Origin: Sedimenticola sp.
Lineage (GTDB): Bacteria > Pseudomonadota > Gammaproteobacteria > Chromatiales > Chromatiaceae
Reading direction: 5' to 3'
Assembly (NCBI GenBank): GCA_027038775.1
Contig: JALWGP010000192.1
Coordinates: 1 to 11,463 of the forward strand
DNA length: 11,463 nt
Shown here: positions 2,532 to 11,463 of the stretch, piece after piece
How the letters are laid out: the number at the start of each line of letters is the position of its first letter
How positions within the stretch are numbered: the stretch's first letter is position 1
The notes under the pieces: model-generated
Seen by the model: only the letters and a program-made list of their open reading frames with translations
Told to the model about the DNA's origin: nothing
The model's database searches: none
Position numbers and translations under genes: made by a program

Positions 2532-3437
2532 ATGCTGCGGCGCAAGACGATTCCCATTCTGGCGGCATTCGCCCTGGCCGTCGTCACGCCGGGTCGCGCG
2601 GACGAGGACGGCTCGGGGGACCTGCTGCGCCTGGACCGCGGCGCCGTGATTCTCGCCCACACCGGCCAGTACGACGAGGAGTTTCCCGCCAACGCCCTCA
2701 TCGACGGTCGGCTGCGGGACTACTGGGCCAGCGGCAGGCGCCACGTGGTGGGCTTCCGACCCGACAGCTTCATCATCGAGCTCGATCGTACCTATCTCAT
2801 CCGCCGCCTGGTGGTGGACAACCGGGACAACGATGAGATGCAGTATCCCGGCATCTCCGCAAAGGAGGTGCGCTTTTCCGCCTCCACCGAATCTCATACC
2901 GGTCCCTGGACACCCATGGCGGTGGTGGAGGGGAAGAAGTTCGAGCGTGCCGAAAAGGTGCTGGAGAAACCGGTGGCGGCGCACTGGCTCAAGGTGGAGG
3001 TGCTCTCCAACCACGGTCACAGGCTCTACACGGAGATCAGCGAGCTGGAAGCCTACGGTGAGCCTCTGGGCGATCCGCCGGCCGGGGTGGAGCCCGGCGG
3101 GGTCTACCAGACCAACTACGGCCCCCTCCTGCTCAAGGTGACGGGCAACCGGGTGGAGGGCTGCTACGAGCTGGACAAGGGCTACGTCTACGGTATCACC
3201 GACGGCCGGGTCTTCCATCTCAACTGGATCGAGCACCGGGGCGAGGAGCGGGGCACGGCCGTGCTGGTGCTCTCTTCCACCCGCTTTCTCAACGGCCTCT
3301 GGTACGAGGAGGGCAACCTCTCCGGCACCTGGTTCGGCAACAAGCTGCCGGACCGCGAACCCATCGGCTGCGACCCGGTCACCGCCGCTGCGGGCGTGGG
3401 CTTCACCGCCGGCGAACTGGCCGCCGGGAACGAGTGA
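2532..3437 (+). CDS. Exported discoidin (F5/8 type C)-like protein of unknown function
   Basis: A 301-residue protein with an N-terminal Sec signal (positive MLRRK, hydrophobic stretch 7-19, likely cleavage after GRA at 23, no lipobox), so probably periplasmic. Residues about 36-176 look like a discoidin/F5-8 type C beta-sandwich: ANALIDGRLRDYWAS near the start, FIIELDRTYLIRRLVV in the middle, and HWLKVEVLSN...YTEISELEAYG at the end. Such domains often bind carbohydrate or other surface ligands. Residues about 188-272 form a second beta-rich module with repeated G-x-Y / G-x-W turns (GGVYQTNYG, VEGCY, YVYGITDG, NGLWYEEGNLSGTWFG). I do not recognise a characterised protein. AGAGG lies 11 nt before the ATG, and TAAAAT (2493-2498) is a possible -10. 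Its stop overlaps the ribF start by one base (TGATG), suggesting translational coupling. It sits where murJ and ribF are often direct neighbours. Confidence 0.85.
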   Translation: MLRRKTIPILAAFALAVVTPGRADEDGSGDLLRLDRGAVILAHTGQYDEEFPANALIDGRLRDYWASGRRHVVGFRPDSFIIELDRTYLIRRLVVDNRDNDEMQYPGISAKEVRFSASTESHTGPWTPMAVVEGKKFERAEKVLEKPVAAHWLKVEVLSNHGHRLYTEISELEAYGEPLGDPPAGVEPGGVYQTNYGPLLLKVTGNRVEGCYELDKGYVYGITDGRVFHLNWIEHRGEERGTAVLVLSSTRFLNGLWYEEGNLSGTWFGNKLPDREPIGCDPVTAAAGVGFTAGELAAGNE

Positions 3438-4423: not shown

Positions 4424-7227
4424 GCAAGTACAAGGACACTCTCAACCTGCCCAAGACCAAATTCGCCATGCGCGGCAATCTCGCCCAGCGCGAACCCCAG
4501 GCCATCGAGGCGTGGACGGAGAAGGGGCTCTACGAACGCATCCGCCAGGCCCGCGCCGGCGCCGAGAAGTTCATCCTACACGACGGCCCGCCCTACGCCA
4601 ACGGCGACATCCACATCGGCCACGCGGTCAACAAGATTCTCAAGGACATCATCGTCAAGAGCCGCACCCTGGACGGCTACGACGCCCCCTACGTGCCGGG
4701 CTGGGACTGCCACGGCCTGCCCATCGAGCTGCAGGTGGAGAAGAAGGTGGGCAAGCCGGGCCAGAAGGTGAACGCCGCCGAATTCCGCCAGGCCTGCCGC
4801 GACTACGCCCGCAGCCAGGTGGAGCGGCAGAAGGCCGACTTCAAGCGGTTGCTGGTGCTGGGCGACTGGGAGAACCCATACCTCACCATGAACTTCCAGC
4901 AGGAGGCCGACATCATCCGCTCCCTTGGGCGCATCGTGGCGGCGGGCCACCTGCACAAGGGCTCCAAGCCGGTGAACTGGTGCACCGAGTGCGGCTCGGC
5001 CCTGGCCGAGGCCGAGGTGGACTACCTGGACAAGACCTCCACCGCCATCGACGTGCGCTTCCCGGTGGTGGACGAGGCCGCCTTCCTCGATCGCTGCGAC
5101 ATGGCGGAGGCCGGCGAAGGGCCCCTCTCGGTGGTGATCTGGACCACCACCCCCTGGACCCTGCCCGCCAACCAGGCGGTGGCACTGAACCCGGAGCTGG
5201 AGTACCTGGTGATCCAGGCCGGCGGTGAGCGGCTGCTGGTGGCCGAGGGGCTCCTGGAGCAGGCGCTGGCCCGCTGGGGGGTGGAGGATCCGGTGCGCCT
5301 CGGCAGTTGCCGTGGCCAGGCGCTGGAGGGGCTGATGCTCCAGCATCCCTTCTACGACCGGCAGGTGCCCCTCATCCTGGGCGAGCATGTCACCCTGGAT
5401 GCCGGCACCGGCGCCGTCCACACCGCCCCCGGCCACGGCCTGGAGGACTACGTGGTGGGCCAGCAGTACGGCCTGGAGGTGGACAACCCGGTGCTGGGCG
5501 ACGGCCGTTTCCGCGAGGACCTGCCGCTCTTCGGCGGGCAGAAGGTCTTCGAGGCCAACGACGAGGTGGTGAAGGTGCTGAAGGAATGGGGCCGGCTGCT
5601 CTGCGCCGGCAAGCTCGCTCACAGCTATCCCCACTGCTGGCGCCACAAGACTCCCATCATCTTCCGCGCCACGCCCCAGTGGTTCATCAGCATGGACCAG
5701 AACGGCCTGCGAGACGCCGCCCTGGCCGAGATCGAACGGGTGGAGTGGCTGCCCGACTGGGGACGGGAGCGCATCCGCGGCATGGTGGAGAACCGGCCCG
5801 ACTGGTGCATCTCCCGCCAGCGCACCTGGGGCGTGCCCATCACCCTCTTCGTCCATCGCGAAAGCGGCGAGCTGCACCCGCGCACCCCCGAGCTCTTCGA
5901 GGAGGTGGCCCGGCGGGTGGAGGAGAAGGGCATCGACGCCTGGTTCGAGCTCGATCCCGCCGAGCTGCTGGGCGACGAGGCAGCGCAGTTCGAGAAGGTC
6001 ACCGACACCCTGGACGTCTGGTTCGATTCCGGGGTCACCCACGCCTGCGTCCTCGACCGCCGCCCGGAGCTCAAGCGCCCCGCCGAGCTCTACCTGGAAG
6101 GCTCCGACCAGCACCGCGGCTGGTTCCAGTCCTCCCTGCTCACCTCGGTGGCCATGACCGGCCGGGCGCCCTATGAAGCCTGTCTCACCCACGGCTTCAC
6201 CGTGGACGCCGAGGGGCGCAAGATGTCCAAGTCCCTGGGCAACGTGGTGCAGCCGCAGAAGGTGATGAAGAGCCTGGGGGCCGACATCGTCCGCCTCTGG
6301 GTGGCGGCCACCGACTACCGCGCCGAGATGGCGGTCTCCGACGAGATCCTCAAGCGCATGGCCGACGCCTACCGGCGGTTGCGTAACACCCAGCGCTTCC
6401 TGCTGGCCAACCTCTTCGACTTCGACCCGGCGCAGCATGCCCTGGTGCCGGAGCAGATGGTGGAGCTGGACCGCTGGATCGTGGGCGAGGCGCAGAGGCT
6501 CCAGGAGGAGGTGGTGCAGGCCTACCGCGACTACAACTTCCACCTCATCTACCAGAAGGTGACCCAGTTCTGCGTGGTGGAGCTGGGCGGCTTCTACCTG
6601 GACGTGATCAAGGACCGCCAGTACACCTGCAAGACCGACAGCCCGGCGCGCCGCTCCTGCCAGACCGCCATCCACCAGATCGCCGAGGCCATGGTGCGCT
6701 GGCTGGCGCCCATCCTCAGCTTCACCGCCCAGGAGGCCTGGGAGCACCTGCCCGGCGAGCGCGACGAGTTCGTCTTCACCCAGCACTGGCACCGCTTCCC
6801 CGAGGCGGCGGTCGGCGGACGTCTCACGGAGGCCGACTGGCGGCGGCTGCTGGCAGCACGCGGCGAGGTGAGCCGGGTGCTGGAGGGGATGCGCAAGGCG
6901 GGCGAGATCGGTTCCTCCCTGGACGCCGAGGTGACCCTCTACTGTGATGGCGAGCTCCGCGACAGCCTGGCGAAGCTGGAGGACGAACTGCGCTTCGCCC
7001 TCATCACCTCCTACGCCGAGCTGAAGCCCCTGGCGGAGGCCGGCGGAGAGGCGGTGGAGACCGAAGTGGCCGGGCTGAAGGTGGCGGCCGCCGCCTCCGC
7101 CCACCCCAAGTGCGTGCGCTGCTGGCACCACCGCGAGGACGTGGGCAGCCACCCGGACCACCCCGAACTCTGCGGCCGCTGCGTGGAGAACGTGGAGGGC
7201 CGGGGTGAGGAGCGCCGCTTTGCCTGA
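4420..7227 (+). CDS. ileS: Isoleucyl-tRNA synthetase
   Basis: Class I aminoacyl-tRNA synthetase that charges tRNA-Ile. It has 935 residues, almost the length of the E. coli enzyme (938). The ATP-binding HIGH motif is at 65-68 in [13 protein letters not shown], and KMSKS is at 601-605. The CP1 editing domain, which hydrolyses Val-tRNA-Ile, shows [13 protein letters not shown] and [16 protein letters not shown] with its conserved Asp. The C-terminal zinc site C898-x2-C901...C918-x2-C921 is intact, placing it with the bacterial-type synthetases that carry this extension. It starts at GTG 4420, overlapping the ribF stop (GTGA), with AGGAA 9 nt upstream. It overlaps the start of lspA at its 3' end. 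Confidence 0.98.
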
Positions 7228-7714
7228 GCGGCTCTCCACCACGCCCTGGCTACTGCTGGCGGCGGCGGTGGCGCTGGCGGACCAGCTCACCAAGTGGTGG
7301 GTGCTGCACAGCTTCCACCCCGGCGAGGTGCGGGAGGTGCTGCCGGTCTTCAACCTGGTGCTCACCTTCAACGAGGGGGCCGCCTTCAGCTTTCTCAGCG
7401 AGGCCGGCGGCTGGCAGCGGTGGTTCTTCATCCTGCTGACCCTGGGCGTCTCCCTCGCCCTGGTGCTCTGGCTGCGGCGTCTCCATGCCGGCGAGCGGGC
7501 CACCGCCCTGGGGCTGGCGCTGATCCTGGGCGGCGCCCTGGGCAACCTGGTGGACCGGGTCCGGTTGGGCCGGGTCACCGACTTTCTCGATTTCCACTGG
7601 CAGGGGTGGCACTGGCCCGCCTTCAACCTGGCCGACTCGGCCATCACCCTCGGCGTGGTGGTGCTCCTGCTCTTCTCCGGCAGGCAGAAAAAAACCCGGC
7701 CACACTCCATGTGA
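7205..7714 (+). CDS. lspA: Prolipoprotein signal peptidase (signal peptidase II)
   Basis: Inner-membrane aspartyl protease that cleaves the signal peptide of diacylglyceryl-modified prolipoproteins. Four membrane segments are visible: about 14-30, 71-91, 99-117 and 144-158. The catalytic aspartates lie in [18 protein letters not shown] (D117) and FNLADSAIT (D144), with the usual FNEGAAFS block before them. Two starts are supported. GTG 7205 has GGAGG 6 nt upstream and gives 169 residues. TTG 7220 has GAGGAG 7 nt upstream and gives 164, the E. coli length. Either overlaps the end of ileS. Its last codons (QKKTRPHSM) are read from the A tract and left stem arm of the terminator that serves the opposite strand. 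The fkpB-ispH pair that often follows lspA is absent. Confidence 0.96.
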
Positions 7715-7720
7715 CCGGGT
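7688..7720 (-). terminator. Intrinsic terminator for the minus strand (putative sRNA and btuF-like mRNA)
   Basis: On the minus strand, ACCCGG (7720-7715) pairs with CCGGGT (7699-7694). After one mismatch, CACA (7713-7710) pairs with TGTG (7704-7701), leaving loop TGGAG (7709-7705). Seven U follow (plus-strand A7 at 7688-7694). It overlaps the last codons and stop of lspA on the other strand. There the hairpin has no downstream T tract, so it is oriented for minus-strand transcripts. Confidence 0.88.
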
Positions 7721-7808
7721 CGTCGCCAGGCTTGGTCTGGTTCGTCCCTGGGTCGTCCCTGACCGGACCTCCCTGTCCGAATCTCCTGAATCTCCCTTGT
7801 TGGCGACG
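7688..7808 (-). ncRNA. Putative RsmY/RsmZ/CsrB-type CsrA-sequestering small RNA
   Basis: A region of about 121 nt on the minus strand, between the btuF-like stop and the lspA end. It carries seven GGA motifs: AAGGGAG (7797-7791 area), CAGGAG (7788-7783), CGGAC (7779-7775), CAGGGAG (7775-7769), CAGGGACG twice (7761-7754 and 7750-7743) and TGGAG in the terminator loop. The opposite strand has one. Hairpin 1 is CGGAC-AGGGAG-GTCCG (7779-7764); its ACAGGGAGGU is one base off the CsrA core ACARGGAUGU. Hairpin 2 is GGTC-AGGGAC-GACC (7764-7751, sharing G7764). CGTCGCCA (7808-7801) can pair with TGGCGACG (7728-7721) and enclose the array. An intrinsic terminator ends it. Known RsmY/RsmZ RNAs have about this size and build, and titrate the CsrA/RsmA translational repressor. 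The 5' end is not determined; a weak CAGACA-N17-GAGACT (7842-7814) would start near 7807. The family call is inference from architecture. Confidence 0.72.
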
Positions 7809-7811
7809 GCT

Positions 7812-8672
7812 TCAGTCTCTCCCAGAAGGCGTGGCCTGTCTGTCGGTGGCGGCGGAACTCCCTGTAGGCAGATTCCTACAAAGCTGTCCCAGGCCCTCCA
7901 CGATGCGGGGGCCAGGGCGCTCCAGGGTTGGATCGACGGGGACGACCCTGCTTCCGCCGCCCGCCGCTTCCGGGTTCCCGGTGAGCACCAGGTCGTGGGG
8001 GCGGGCGAGCAGGGCTTCGCGGCTGACGGTGACGATGCCCGCCGGCACATCGGCGAAGACGTTCACGAGCCGGGCCCTTGCCAGCACCTCGTTGAGCCAG
8101 TGACGGCCGCCGAGGGTCATGGGCGGACTGGGCCAGATCTCGTAGTAGACGCGCAGGAGCGGGGCGTTGCGCCTGCGGGCGCAGGCGGCTTCGAGCGCCC
8201 GCTCGAAGGTGCCCGCGGCCTCCGCGCCCGCCCGCGGCACGCCGGCCAGGCGGGCGAGCTTCCTCAACGATTCGGCGATCTCCGCCAGGGTGCGGGGTTC
8301 GCTGCGGTAGACGGGGATGCCGATGCGTTCCAGCCAGCGCAGGTCGGCGGGGCGGTTCCCCGAGGCCCAGGCCACCACCAGGTCGGGCCGCAGGAGCAGC
8401 AGCCGCTCGCGGTCCAGGGGACCCAGGGAGGCCACCCTGGGAACGCCGTCGAGGCTTCGCGGGTAGTCGGTGAAATCGGCCACGGCGACCAGGCGGGATT
8501 CCAGTCCCAGGGCCAGGAGCAGCTCGGTGGCGTGGGGGGAGAGAGTGACGATGCGCCGGGCGGGCGCTTCCAGGGTCACGCGGTGGTCGAGGTCGTCGGT
8601 GACCTGCAGGTTGGCCGGTGCCGGGAGTGGCACAGCGAGCAGCGTGATCAGCGGAAGGAGGAGGGCCCTCAT
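7812..8672 (-). CDS. BtuF-like cobalamin ABC-transporter substrate-binding protein
   Basis: A 286-residue periplasmic binding protein of the helical-backbone (BtuF/FepB-type) family, likely capturing vitamin B12 for an ABC importer. A signal peptide covers about residues 1-20 (MRALLLPLITLLAVPLPAPA). Conserved blocks follow E. coli BtuF in order: RRIVTLSPHATELLLALG (39-56), DFTDYPRSLDGVPRVASL, LLLLRPDLVVAWASGN (91-106), SREALLARPHDLVLTGNP (217-233) and GPRIVEGLGQLCRNL (254-268). W102 lies where a B12-contacting Trp occurs in BtuF. Homology ends near residue 268. The last 18 residues (PTGSSAATDRQATPSGRD) are read through the likely promoter of the downstream sRNA. The start ATG overlaps the ampD stop by 4 bp (ATGA). 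No btuC, btuD or cobalamin riboswitch is in the window, so the ligand is inferred. Confidence 0.88.
   Translation of the reverse strand: MRALLLPLITLLAVPLPAPANLQVTDDLDHRVTLEAPARRIVTLSPHATELLLALGLESRLVAVADFTDYPRSLDGVPRVASLGPLDRERLLLLRPDLVVAWASGNRPADLRWLERIGIPVYRSEPRTLAEIAESLRKLARLAGVPRAGAEAAGTFERALEAACARRRNAPLLRVYYEIWPSPPMTLGGRHWLNEVLARARLVNVFADVPAGIVTVSREALLARPHDLVLTGNPEAAGGGSRVVPVDPTLERPGPRIVEGLGQLCRNLPTGSSAATDRQATPSGRD
7863..7880 (-). promoter_or_regulatory. GacA/UvrY-box-like 18-bp palindrome upstream of the putative sRNA
   Basis: On the minus strand the sequence is TGTAGGAATCTGCCTACA, a perfect inverted repeat TGTAGG-N6-CCTACA. The established upstream activating sequence of Gac-controlled rsm genes is TGTAAG-N6-CTTACA, so spacing and length are identical and one base per half-site differs, symmetrically. 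It lies about 55-72 bp upstream of the predicted sRNA 5' end. It is fully inside the coding frame of the btuF-like gene (codons for CRNLPT). Confidence 0.7.
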
Positions 8673-9511: not shown

Positions 9512-11463
9512 ATGGCCAAACCTTATAAATCGGTGCTGACCCGCCACCAGCTCCAGCAGCTGGCCGGGCTTTTCCGGCGCCGGCTGGAGGCGTGGCTGGA
9601 ACAGCAGCTCGACCCCTATTTCGCCAGCCTGGAAGAGAGCTTCTTCAGCCATGCCGAGCAGGCGGCCAGTGACGCGTTGCGCCAGGGATATACGCACGCG
9701 GTGCAGGAGTTGGGCAGGAAACGTGGGGAGCTGGGGCTGGCGTTCCGCAACAACCTGCTCAAGGCGGTGGAGACCTTCTTTCTCCACTACGAGGCCTACC
9801 TGGAGGAGTTCATCCACGGTTTCACCGCCTCCACCGCCACGCCCGAGTCGCTGGAGCTGGTGAACAACGAAAAGCTGGAGGAGGACCTGGTGGTCCTGAG
9901 GACCTCCCACCGGGCCGCCAGCAATCTGCAGCCCGGCCACAAGGAGATGGTCTCCTACATGGCCGCCGTGGTGCAGCCCAAGGATCTTCCGCAGAACGGC
10001 ACGCCGCTGTCGCCCCAGGTGATCGCCAACTGCATGCGCATGGCGCTTTCCGGTTGGGAAGGAACCGCCGCCTCGCGCTTTCTCTTCTACCAGGTGCTGG
10101 CCGACCGGATGTTGCCGGAACTGGTGGCGCTCTATCCCTCCCTGATCCGGGCGTTGCAGAAGATGGGGCTGGAACCGGTCCAGGTCCAGGTGAAGGTGAA
10201 GCGGCCGCATCCGCGCCAGCGCGCGCTGCCGCTCTCGGGCTACGCCCCCATGGCCACGGGGCGGCAGGGAAACAGCCGGCTGGAGGGCGAGGAGGCTGCC
10301 CTCTTCTCGGTGCTCAGCCTGATGCGCCAGCTCGGTGACGAGGACCGGGAGTTTCTCGGCATGGTGGGGTCGGTGGCCGGCGCCGCCCGTTCCTCGGGTG
10401 CCGCGATGAAGCCGGAGTCGCTGGCCCGGGTGGTGCGAGGGCTGCTGCAAAACCATTTCCGGGAGGTGGTCGGGCTGGAGGAGACCCGTGCGATCCAGGA
10501 GTCCTGGAAGCGGGACCTGGTGCAGGGCCTGAAGCGGCGGATGGAGGAGGAGCAGCTCCGGCTGCACAACCTCGACCAGCAGATCATCGACATCGTTACC
10601 ATGCTGTTCGATTTCGTGCTGGACGATTCCCTGATTCCCGATTCCATGAAGGTGCTGCTGATCCGCCTGCAGATGCCGGTGCTCCAGATCGCCATTCGCG
10701 ACAAGACCTTTCTCACCAACAGCCGGCACCCGGCCCGCGTGCTGGTCAACAATCTTTCGCGGGCGGCAGTGCGCTGGGTGGACGTGGGGGACTACTCCGA
10801 CGACAGCGTCTACGGCATGATCCGCAATTCGGTGGAGCGCATCCTGCAGGGGGATGGCAGGGACCCCGGGCTCTACCTCGAGGTGAACCGCGATTTCGAG
10901 GAGTTCCTGGCCCAGGAAGAGCGTGGGGCGAGGGTGGCCGAAGAGCGGATCTCCCAGGTGGCGAGAGGCAAGGAGCAGCTGGCCATGGCGCGTCGCCGGG
11001 TCGCCGACATCCTGGACGGGCTCGTCACCGAGGAGCTGCCCGAAGTGGTCCGCCAGATCCTGGAGGATGCGTGGCGGGACGTGCTGACCCTCATCCTGCT
11101 GCGGGAAGGCGAGGAGAGCGATGCCTGGCGGGAGGCCTTGGGGGTGGCCCGGCGGCTCGCGCACAGCGTGTGGGGCGAGGAGATCGAGCAACAGCGCGAC
11201 CGGTTCGTTGCGGAGATCCCGCAGCTGCTGGGCGAACTGCGCCGGGGATTTGCCTCCATCGCCTACGATTCCAAGAAGTCGGCGCAGTTGCTGGAGAAGC
11301 TGGAAGCCTGTCACGAGGCCGCCTCCCGGGGGGGCGCCTCCGTGACCGTCTCCTGCGCCCGTGCGACGACAACCGGGAAGGAAAAGGCGGGGGACGAAAC
11401 GGCCGGATCCGCCGAGCCCGACCGCTACGACCAGCTGGTGCAATCGCTGAGGGAGGGCGACTG
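9512..11463 (+). CDS. DUF1631-family protein (partial, runs off the right end)
   Basis: An uninterrupted frame of 650 codons from ATG 9512 to the window edge, with GAAGAG 8 nt before the start. The protein is soluble, helical and highly charged, with no signal peptide or membrane segment. Recognisable features are MAKPYKSVLTRHQLQQLAG, an LELVNNEKLEEDLV segment, and the central LDQQIIDIVTMLFDFVLDDS followed by LIPDSMKVLLIRLQMPVLQI. FLTNSRHPARVLVNNLSRA comes next, and then a coiled-coil-like Arg/Glu-rich stretch. This pattern matches DUF1631 (PF07793), a family of roughly 700-800 residues sometimes mislabelled thymidine phosphorylase. The visible end (YDQLVQSLREGD) resembles the entry to the C-terminal module of these proteins, so about 100 residues are probably missing. 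Biochemical function is not established. It is divergent from ampD. Long minus-strand frames over it are shadows. Confidence 0.88.
   Translation, partial: MAKPYKSVLTRHQLQQLAGLFRRRLEAWLEQQLDPYFASLEESFFSHAEQAASDALRQGYTHAVQELGRKRGELGLAFRNNLLKAVETFFLHYEAYLEEFIHGFTASTATPESLELVNNEKLEEDLVVLRTSHRAASNLQPGHKEMVSYMAAVVQPKDLPQNGTPLSPQVIANCMRMALSGWEGTAASRFLFYQVLADRMLPELVALYPSLIRALQKMGLEPVQVQVKVKRPHPRQRALPLSGYAPMATGRQGNSRLEGEEAALFSVLSLMRQLGDEDREFLGMVGSVAGAARSSGAAMKPESLARVVRGLLQNHFREVVGLEETRAIQESWKRDLVQGLKRRMEEEQLRLHNLDQQIIDIVTMLFDFVLDDSLIPDSMKVLLIRLQMPVLQIAIRDKTFLTNSRHPARVLVNNLSRAAVRWVDVGDYSDDSVYGMIRNSVERILQGDGRDPGLYLEVNRDFEEFLAQEERGARVAEERISQVARGKEQLAMARRRVADILDGLVTEELPEVVRQILEDAWRDVLTLILLREGEESDAWREALGVARRLAHSVWGEEIEQQRDRFVAEIPQLLGELRRGFASIAYDSKKSAQLLEKLEACHEAASRGGASVTVSCARATTTGKEKAGDETAGSAEPDRYDQLVQSLREGD

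Follow-up and report, generated by a model that had tools for sequence, protein, structure and literature searches.

The Gac/Csr switch is known mainly from pseudomonads, enterics and vibrios, and the prediction of CsrA-regulating RNAs was reportedly the subject of a 2006 NAR paper. The closest described RNAs are RsmX, RsmY and RsmZ of Pseudomonas (RF02144, RF00195 and RF00166) and CsrB and CsrC of E. coli (RF00018 and RF00084). With the former the Sedimenticola RNA described here shares a length of about 110 to 120 nt, repeated GGA motifs and a rho-independent terminator; with the latter, a GGA-rich RNA under a UvrY palindrome, CsrB being far longer than the ~120-nt Sedimenticola RNA. According to the available excerpts of the respective papers, RsmA sequestration requires several GGA motifs (PMC2375449), the GacA/UvrY box has the consensus TGTAAG-N6-CTTACA (PMC4950607; PMC4682653), the UvrY palindrome of csrB is TGTGAGAGATCTCTTACA (PMC4682653), and BarA-UvrY and its orthologues have been proposed, in a survey, to transcribe CsrA-antagonist RNAs across the Gammaproteobacteria (PMC4682653). 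RsmW of P. aeruginosa, which binds RsmA in addition to the first Rsm RNAs, has seven GGA motifs (PMC4950607, excerpt), as does the Sedimenticola RNA. The RsmA sponges of the 3′ UTR type predicted in Vibrio fischeri likewise follow a coding gene and carry GGA in loops, and predictions of such RNAs in other species are given in the same excerpt (PMC5568370).

We analyzed an 11,463-nt stretch of Sedimenticola sp. DNA (the window), in which the minus strand of positions 7688 to 7809 very probably encodes a GacA-activated, CsrA-sequestering small RNA of the Rsm/CsrB type, about 120 nt long. The neighboring genes are a btuF-like periplasmic binding protein gene (7812 to 8672, minus strand; PF01497, 66.2 bits against a cut-off of 27.5), whose product scores 118.2 bits with the BtuF equivalog model, under the cut-off of 234, and the convergent lspA (7205 to 7714, plus strand; TIGR00077, 143.2 bits against a cut-off of 73.95), whose 3′ end at 7714 is overlapped by the terminator of the RNA.

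The original prediction started from seven GGA motifs on the minus strand against one on the other, and this count is correct for the 122 nt of 7809-7688: six motifs start at 7795, 7786, 7778, 7772, 7758 and 7747 (span, 7745 to 7795, minus strand) and the seventh at 7708 on the same strand, in the terminator loop. As the main argument it is weak alone, since 751 of 2,000 dinucleotide shuffles had seven or more (mean, 5.97), and we rejected it as proof of a sponge because shuffles reach seven so often. In the local background, 122-nt windows with at least seven GGA make up 1.8% of the plus strand and 2.4% of the minus strand. The ANGGA form is enriched in 7809-7688, with five occurrences versus a shuffle mean of 1.37 (matched by 10 of 2,000 shuffles), and four GGA lie in hairpin loops with a stem of at least 4 bp versus 1.58 in shuffles (matched by 103 of 2,000).

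For 7815-7680, the predicted fold has greater stability than the folds of shuffled sequences (z = −2.61). Two consecutive hexaloop hairpins had been drawn for the RNA, GGAC[AGGGAG]GUCC (7765 to 7778, minus strand) and GGUC[AGGGAC]GACC (7751 to 7764, minus strand); both sequences are present, with CsrA-site-like loops, but the drawing did not hold as the predicted optimum of the free RNA, at −44.7 kcal/mol with the two hairpins compared to −57.2 kcal/mol for the minimum-energy fold. Several GGA motifs are buried in that lowest-energy fold, which counts against CsrA sequestration. A long-range stem of 8 bp, 7808-7801 with 7728-7721, can likewise be read as proposed, but only its inner 6 bp are conserved, i.e., GUCGCC (7802 to 7807) and GGCGAC (7722 to 7727), which form the closing stem on the minus strand. 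Next to the 3′ arm lies a conserved linker without GGA, ACCAAGCC in the Sedimenticola locus (7729 to 7736, minus strand). The rho-independent terminator expected at the RNA end was indeed found by a terminator scan (7688 to 7721, minus strand; 13 pairs, GGA in the loop), as the one hit where 0.3 was expected.

Overlooked by the original prediction and lying beyond its coordinates is a GacA/UvrY-type upstream activating sequence, the 18-bp palindrome TGTAGGAATCTGCCTACA (7863 to 7880, minus strand), detected by pattern match and conserved in 14 of 15 genus genomes. It reads TGTAGG-N6-CCTACA, the two 6-base arms being perfect inverted repeats around 6 bases, and resembles the published box, with the 6-6-6 geometry in common and near-identical letters. 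The box falls in the last codons of the btuF-like open reading frame and ends 53 nt before the RNA, its center lying about 64 bp ahead of the putative start near 7807; at csrB, by contrast, the palindrome center is placed at −183/−182 (PMC4682653, excerpt), and the GacA site of RsmW is described as weak and ~830 bp upstream (PMC4950607, excerpt), whereas the Sedimenticola box is strong and close. It is the sole strict TGTARGN6CYTACA match in the window, with none in 200 shuffles, and also the sole one in the assembly (2.37 Mb, 440 contigs, 89% complete). Downstream on the same strand, promoter-like elements can be read from the sequence at 7842 to 7814: a −35-like CAGACA (7842-7837), a 17-nt spacer and a −10-like GAGACT (7819-7814). 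The columns ACAGAC and ACT are invariant in an alignment of seven genus sequences, and in the 14-sequence consensus of the promoter region two sequences have AATACA instead. Because a scan of the window gave no sigma-70 consensus promoter, it is by inference that we place the putative promoter there and a start near 7807. Unlike the V. fischeri sponges, as far as the excerpt of PMC5568370 describes them, the Sedimenticola RNA has a GacA-type box and possibly its own promoter, and its location relative to genes varies between genera.

Within the genus, DNA similarity to the RNA locus was found in 7 of 15 genomes, the Sedimenticola source included, and box patterns enlarged the set to 14 sequences, four of which came from named records equal to G002, G004, G010 and G011; the covariance model R1 was built from these 14. 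R1 recovers 14 of the 15 genomes at 98 bits or more (112.9 bits at the locus itself), a circular result by construction, as the model was made from those 14 sequences; the independent genus-level support is the DNA similarity (7/15) and the box pattern. The box, its spacing, the 6-bp closing stem, the GGA repeats and the terminator are common to 14 of the 15 genomes, the box being free of mismatches in all 14 loci, 53 to 54 nt ahead of the RNA start. The 14 loci have as neighbors a btuF-like gene (n = 14), ampD (n = 13) and lspA (n = 11). No R1 match was found in G005 (84% complete), which counts against CsrA sequestration. A GGA-blind pattern, consisting of the box, 48 to 60 nt and CCGTCGCC, returned 28 loci over the named genomes, 16 with 5 to 7 GGA downstream and 12 with 0 to 3; 11 of the 16 GGA-rich loci are from the genus that supplied the pattern and five are not (L038, L041, L044, L052 and L053). 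A looser box pattern found 17 places in 16 of 146 genomes in a family scan, 15 of them with at least 5 GGA. Named loci carrying the RNA include those of a Thiolapillus brandeum MAG (L040) and Chromatiaceae CTD079 (L053), and the RNA is also found in two methanotroph MAGs, a Methylococcaceae bacterium (L041) and Methylumidiphilus (L044).

At an E value of ≤0.01, R1 matched 74 of 142 sampled family genomes, of which one or two may be chance matches at this threshold. These include all six genus members and 68 of the 136 genomes from other genera, the other 68 being without a match at this sensitivity; the scan used stricter filters, so that absence carries little weight. Counted by genus, 36 of 61 were matched, the source genus included. 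In the best 24 other-genus loci (L088 to L111), 22 of 25 RNAs have a box with three mismatches at most 53 to 54 nt upstream, whereas the same test at offsets from 0 to 100 nt gave at most one locus anywhere else, bar that spacing and its immediate neighbor. Such a box at 53 to 54 nt was absent from L088, L092 and L100 (3/25 RNAs), L092 having one with four mismatches at that spacing. One genome (L093) has two tandem copies of the RNA (1358-1233 and 1631-1501, minus strand), each with a box at 53 to 54 nt. No homologues of btuF, lspA or ampD were found in the 24 loci (2 to 3 kb each; tblastn, E 1e-4), which argues that the RNA is a gene of its own and not a btuF tail.

A class-wide search with R2, another covariance model of the RNA family (369 genomes, E ≤ 0.001, strict filters, up to nine candidates scored per genome), matched 10 places in 9 genomes. 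Four of these are in family members, i.e., the Sedimenticola source genome, G021 (twice) and G022. Two places from other families, L115 and L117, each have a box free of mismatches, lying 54 nt upstream and accompanied by 6 GGA in L115, and 53 nt upstream with 7 GGA in L117; the latter combines its perfect TGTAAG-N6-CTTACA and its GGA motifs with a CCAACCAAGC linker and a terminator. L120 is equivocal, with three GGA and no box, and L116, L118 and L119, with 0 to 1 GGA and no box, look like chance terminators. The spacing is not absolute, with the box at 75 nt in L121 (the second copy of G021) and at 52 nt in L114.

In an alignment of 44 sequences, fitted to the model structure and so favoring it, 96.6% of the cells pair; none of 500 shuffles matched the pairing or the covariation score, one of 500 had as many pairs with two-sided changes, and the values for slid controls were far below those of the real alignment. 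The covariation is nearly all in the terminator, where 7 of 9 stem pairs are changed on both sides. It is weak in the closing stem (1 of 6 pairs), where 99.6% of the cells are paired; the variant GUCGUC/GACGAC occurs in L107 and L121. As this stem is almost invariant, conservation supports it more than covariation does. The linker is CCAACCAAGC in 22 of the 44 sequences, and its GGA-free CAAGC stands just ahead of the 3′ arm of the closing stem in 42 of 44, a count in which the L080 linker row was read at a misplaced position. For the alignments, L016 was excluded from A3, A4 and A6 and L108 from A6, and the 3′ ends of L012 and L044 were trimmed for A3; the 54-nt match in L100 was lost at a stricter threshold.

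The GGA motifs proved to be conserved in relatives, as the original prediction had looked for. In 46 sequences (one of 47 rows, of <100 nt, was dropped), collected with a model in which GGA letters contribute to the score, ANGGA occurs 4.87 times compared to 1.10 in shuffles, and 43 of the 46 relatives are individually at or below 5% of shuffles. The G residues of GGA have a mean unpaired probability of 0.49 versus 0.22 for other G residues, and the value is higher in 45 of the 46 sequences. GGA loops on changed stems, also looked for, were seen in part: other-stem counterparts occur in L077, L079, L080 and L081 (UGCC[AGGGAU]GGCA in L081 for the second hairpin), but none of the other nine genus loci examined has an internal GGA loop with a stem of at least 4 bp. 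The internal GGA hairpins hence have no fixed fold.

Comparison with the known RNA families was negative at the level of sequence models. The suggested searches with CsrB, CsrC, RsmX, RsmY and PrrB/RsmZ yielded no family at its gathering score, no Rfam family at all being matched in the window at that threshold, and in 20 related loci a single tRNA was the only match. The rsmX model (RF02144) gave 16.6 bits against a gathering score of 56 on the same strand and at the same place (E 1.3, 701-base search), a candidate that we discarded; in 19 further sources this model had no match even at E values as high as 10. RsmY (RF00195; gathering score, 57 bits) had no match at the RNA locus; its sole match in the source genome at E ≤ 0.01 (L135, 23.7 bits) lies elsewhere and was rejected for lacking the box, and matches below the cut-off appeared in 6 of 14 control genomes. 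In the Pseudomonas-type RsmY loci L132 to L134, which served as positive controls and are above the Rfam cut-off, the layout is the same, with a GacA palindrome that ends 58 nt upstream (55 nt in the weaker RsmY-model matches L136 and L137) and takes the mixed form TGTAGG...CTTACA in L133. The RNAs of these five loci differ in lacking both CAAGC and CCAACC and in not being matched by R2, the only R2 match there being one of 14.9 bits in L137, away from the RsmY RNA. Nor did R2 match L112, an E. coli stretch that presumably contains csrB, a gene absent from its feature list. Since the sequence families match in neither direction and no Rfam gathering score is reached, the RNA falls outside every Rfam family; as far as its sequence tells, it would work like RsmX/Y/Z and CsrB.

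The proteins of the pathway are encoded in the source genome (G000). The csrA gene, whose presence had been looked for, specifies a 70-aa protein (C357; PF02599, 91.7 bits against a cut-off of 27) that carries R6 and R44, residues whose roles we take to favor CsrA sequestration. A GacA homologue (C177) shares 51% identity with E. coli UvrY across residues 1 to 210, and homologues at E 3e-64 or better are found in 14 of the 15 genus genomes; in G004 a close GacA was not found, only a distant homologue, which counts against Gac-controlled sequestration. The GacS/BarA homologue (C142) is 35% identical over BarA residues 4 to 876 of 918 and has the HAMP, HisKA, HATPase and receiver domains of a hybrid kinase; a domain-model search of the source genome did not find the BarA sensor domain PF09984, again a point against. 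Together with the GacA-type box at its fixed spacing, the GacA and GacS homologues support the assignment to the Gac/Rsm small RNAs made in the original prediction. That the RNA is one of several, as was also suggested, is likely: a weaker candidate, L128 (C288:27908-28028, minus strand; E 0.0085), has a box with two mismatches, TATCGGAAATTTCCTACA, 54 nt upstream and a closing stem GUCGC/GCGAC, and is probably a second CsrA-sponge RNA copy in the same genome. More divergent Rsm-like RNAs of about 100 to 120 nt occur in four other genomes of the genus (L082 in G001, L083 in G011, L084 in G010 and L086 in G014), with boxes of one to two mismatches at 53 to 54 nt; in two weaker second-copy candidates of G013 (L085 and L087) this spacing was not seen.

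The interpretation as a CsrA sponge draws on what was observed, i.e., the box and its spacing, the conservation, the closing stem, the terminator and the csrA, gacA and gacS homologues, while transcription, binding of GacA and CsrA and a physiological effect would follow by analogy with the known class. The GacS/BarA kinase would phosphorylate GacA, which would bind the palindrome at 7880-7863 and switch on transcription from near 7807; the ~120-nt RNA would terminate at 7721-7688, and CsrA dimers would bind to its five ANGGA sites, of which some may lie in hairpin loops. CsrA would thereby be drawn off mRNAs, and the translation of those mRNAs altered.

It is extremely unlikely that the locus is a purine-rich, GC-rich intergenic stretch that acquired a terminator and its GGA by chance: shuffles do match the GGA count (751 of 2,000), but box, spacing, stems and motifs are all conserved over many genera, which already contradicts it. 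Slightly less remote, though still very unlikely, is a fragment derived from the 3′ UTR of the btuF-like gene, or its plain terminator region, lacking any independent regulatory function. The RNA does start about 3 nt past the stop codon of the btuF-like gene, whose reading frame overlaps the box at its end; yet in L088 to L111 the RNA occurs where btuF, lspA and ampD homologues were not found, with the box spacing kept in most, and a closing stem, an ANGGA array and a box are not expected of a terminator alone.

Two other readings we each consider improbable. The palindrome could be bound by a different regulator, the RNA then being a CsrA sponge under non-Gac control, given that the arms read TGTAGG...CCTACA and not TGTAAG...CTTACA and that it is mostly the downstream half of the box which is retained in many family members. 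The shared 6-6-6 geometry and near-identical letters (PMC4950607 and PMC4682653, excerpts), the GacA homologues in 14 of the 15 genus genomes and the mixed form at the rsmY locus L133 all speak against this, as does the P. brassicacearum upstream activating sequence TATAGCGAAACGCTTACA, which in the excerpt of PMC7911923 likewise has a degenerate upstream half. Of equally low probability is that the RNA acts mainly by base-pairing with mRNAs, e.g., via the CAAGC linker, with the GGA motifs secondary; the position and near-constancy of this GGA-free element would fit, but ANGGA enrichment and GGA accessibility across relatives argue the other way.

In our best reading, the CsrA-sequestering RNA represents an uncatalogued sequence family, apparently of Sedimenticola/Thiolapillus-type Gammaproteobacteria, a sulfur-oxidizing group, and a well-known kind of regulator. 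No description of Csr/Rsm RNAs in the Sedimenticola group was found in titles and abstract openings of open-license papers, among the matches listed, and other papers may differ. A candidate CsrA-antagonist RNA is now supplied for the relatives of Sedimenticola and Thiolapillus; its alignment and covariance model could be turned into a new RNA family. Gac/Csr control also becomes directly testable in these bacteria. We also entertain, tentatively and as the less likely case, a separate and widespread lineage of CsrA sponges with a fixed architecture (the GUCGCC/GGCGAC closing stem, the CCAACCAAGC-type linker and the GGA-bearing terminator loop), in which the linker would act as a further functional site, used in processing, in the control of decay or in pairing with mRNAs; if so, the RNA would do more than titrate CsrA.

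Elsewhere in the window, a protein encoded at 2532-3437 (plus strand) has an F5/8 type C (discoidin-like) domain that scores slightly over the cut-off, with no match in an NCBIfam search, and a long DUF1631 protein (PF07793, 385.5 bits) is encoded at 9512-11461 (plus strand), running off the contig end.
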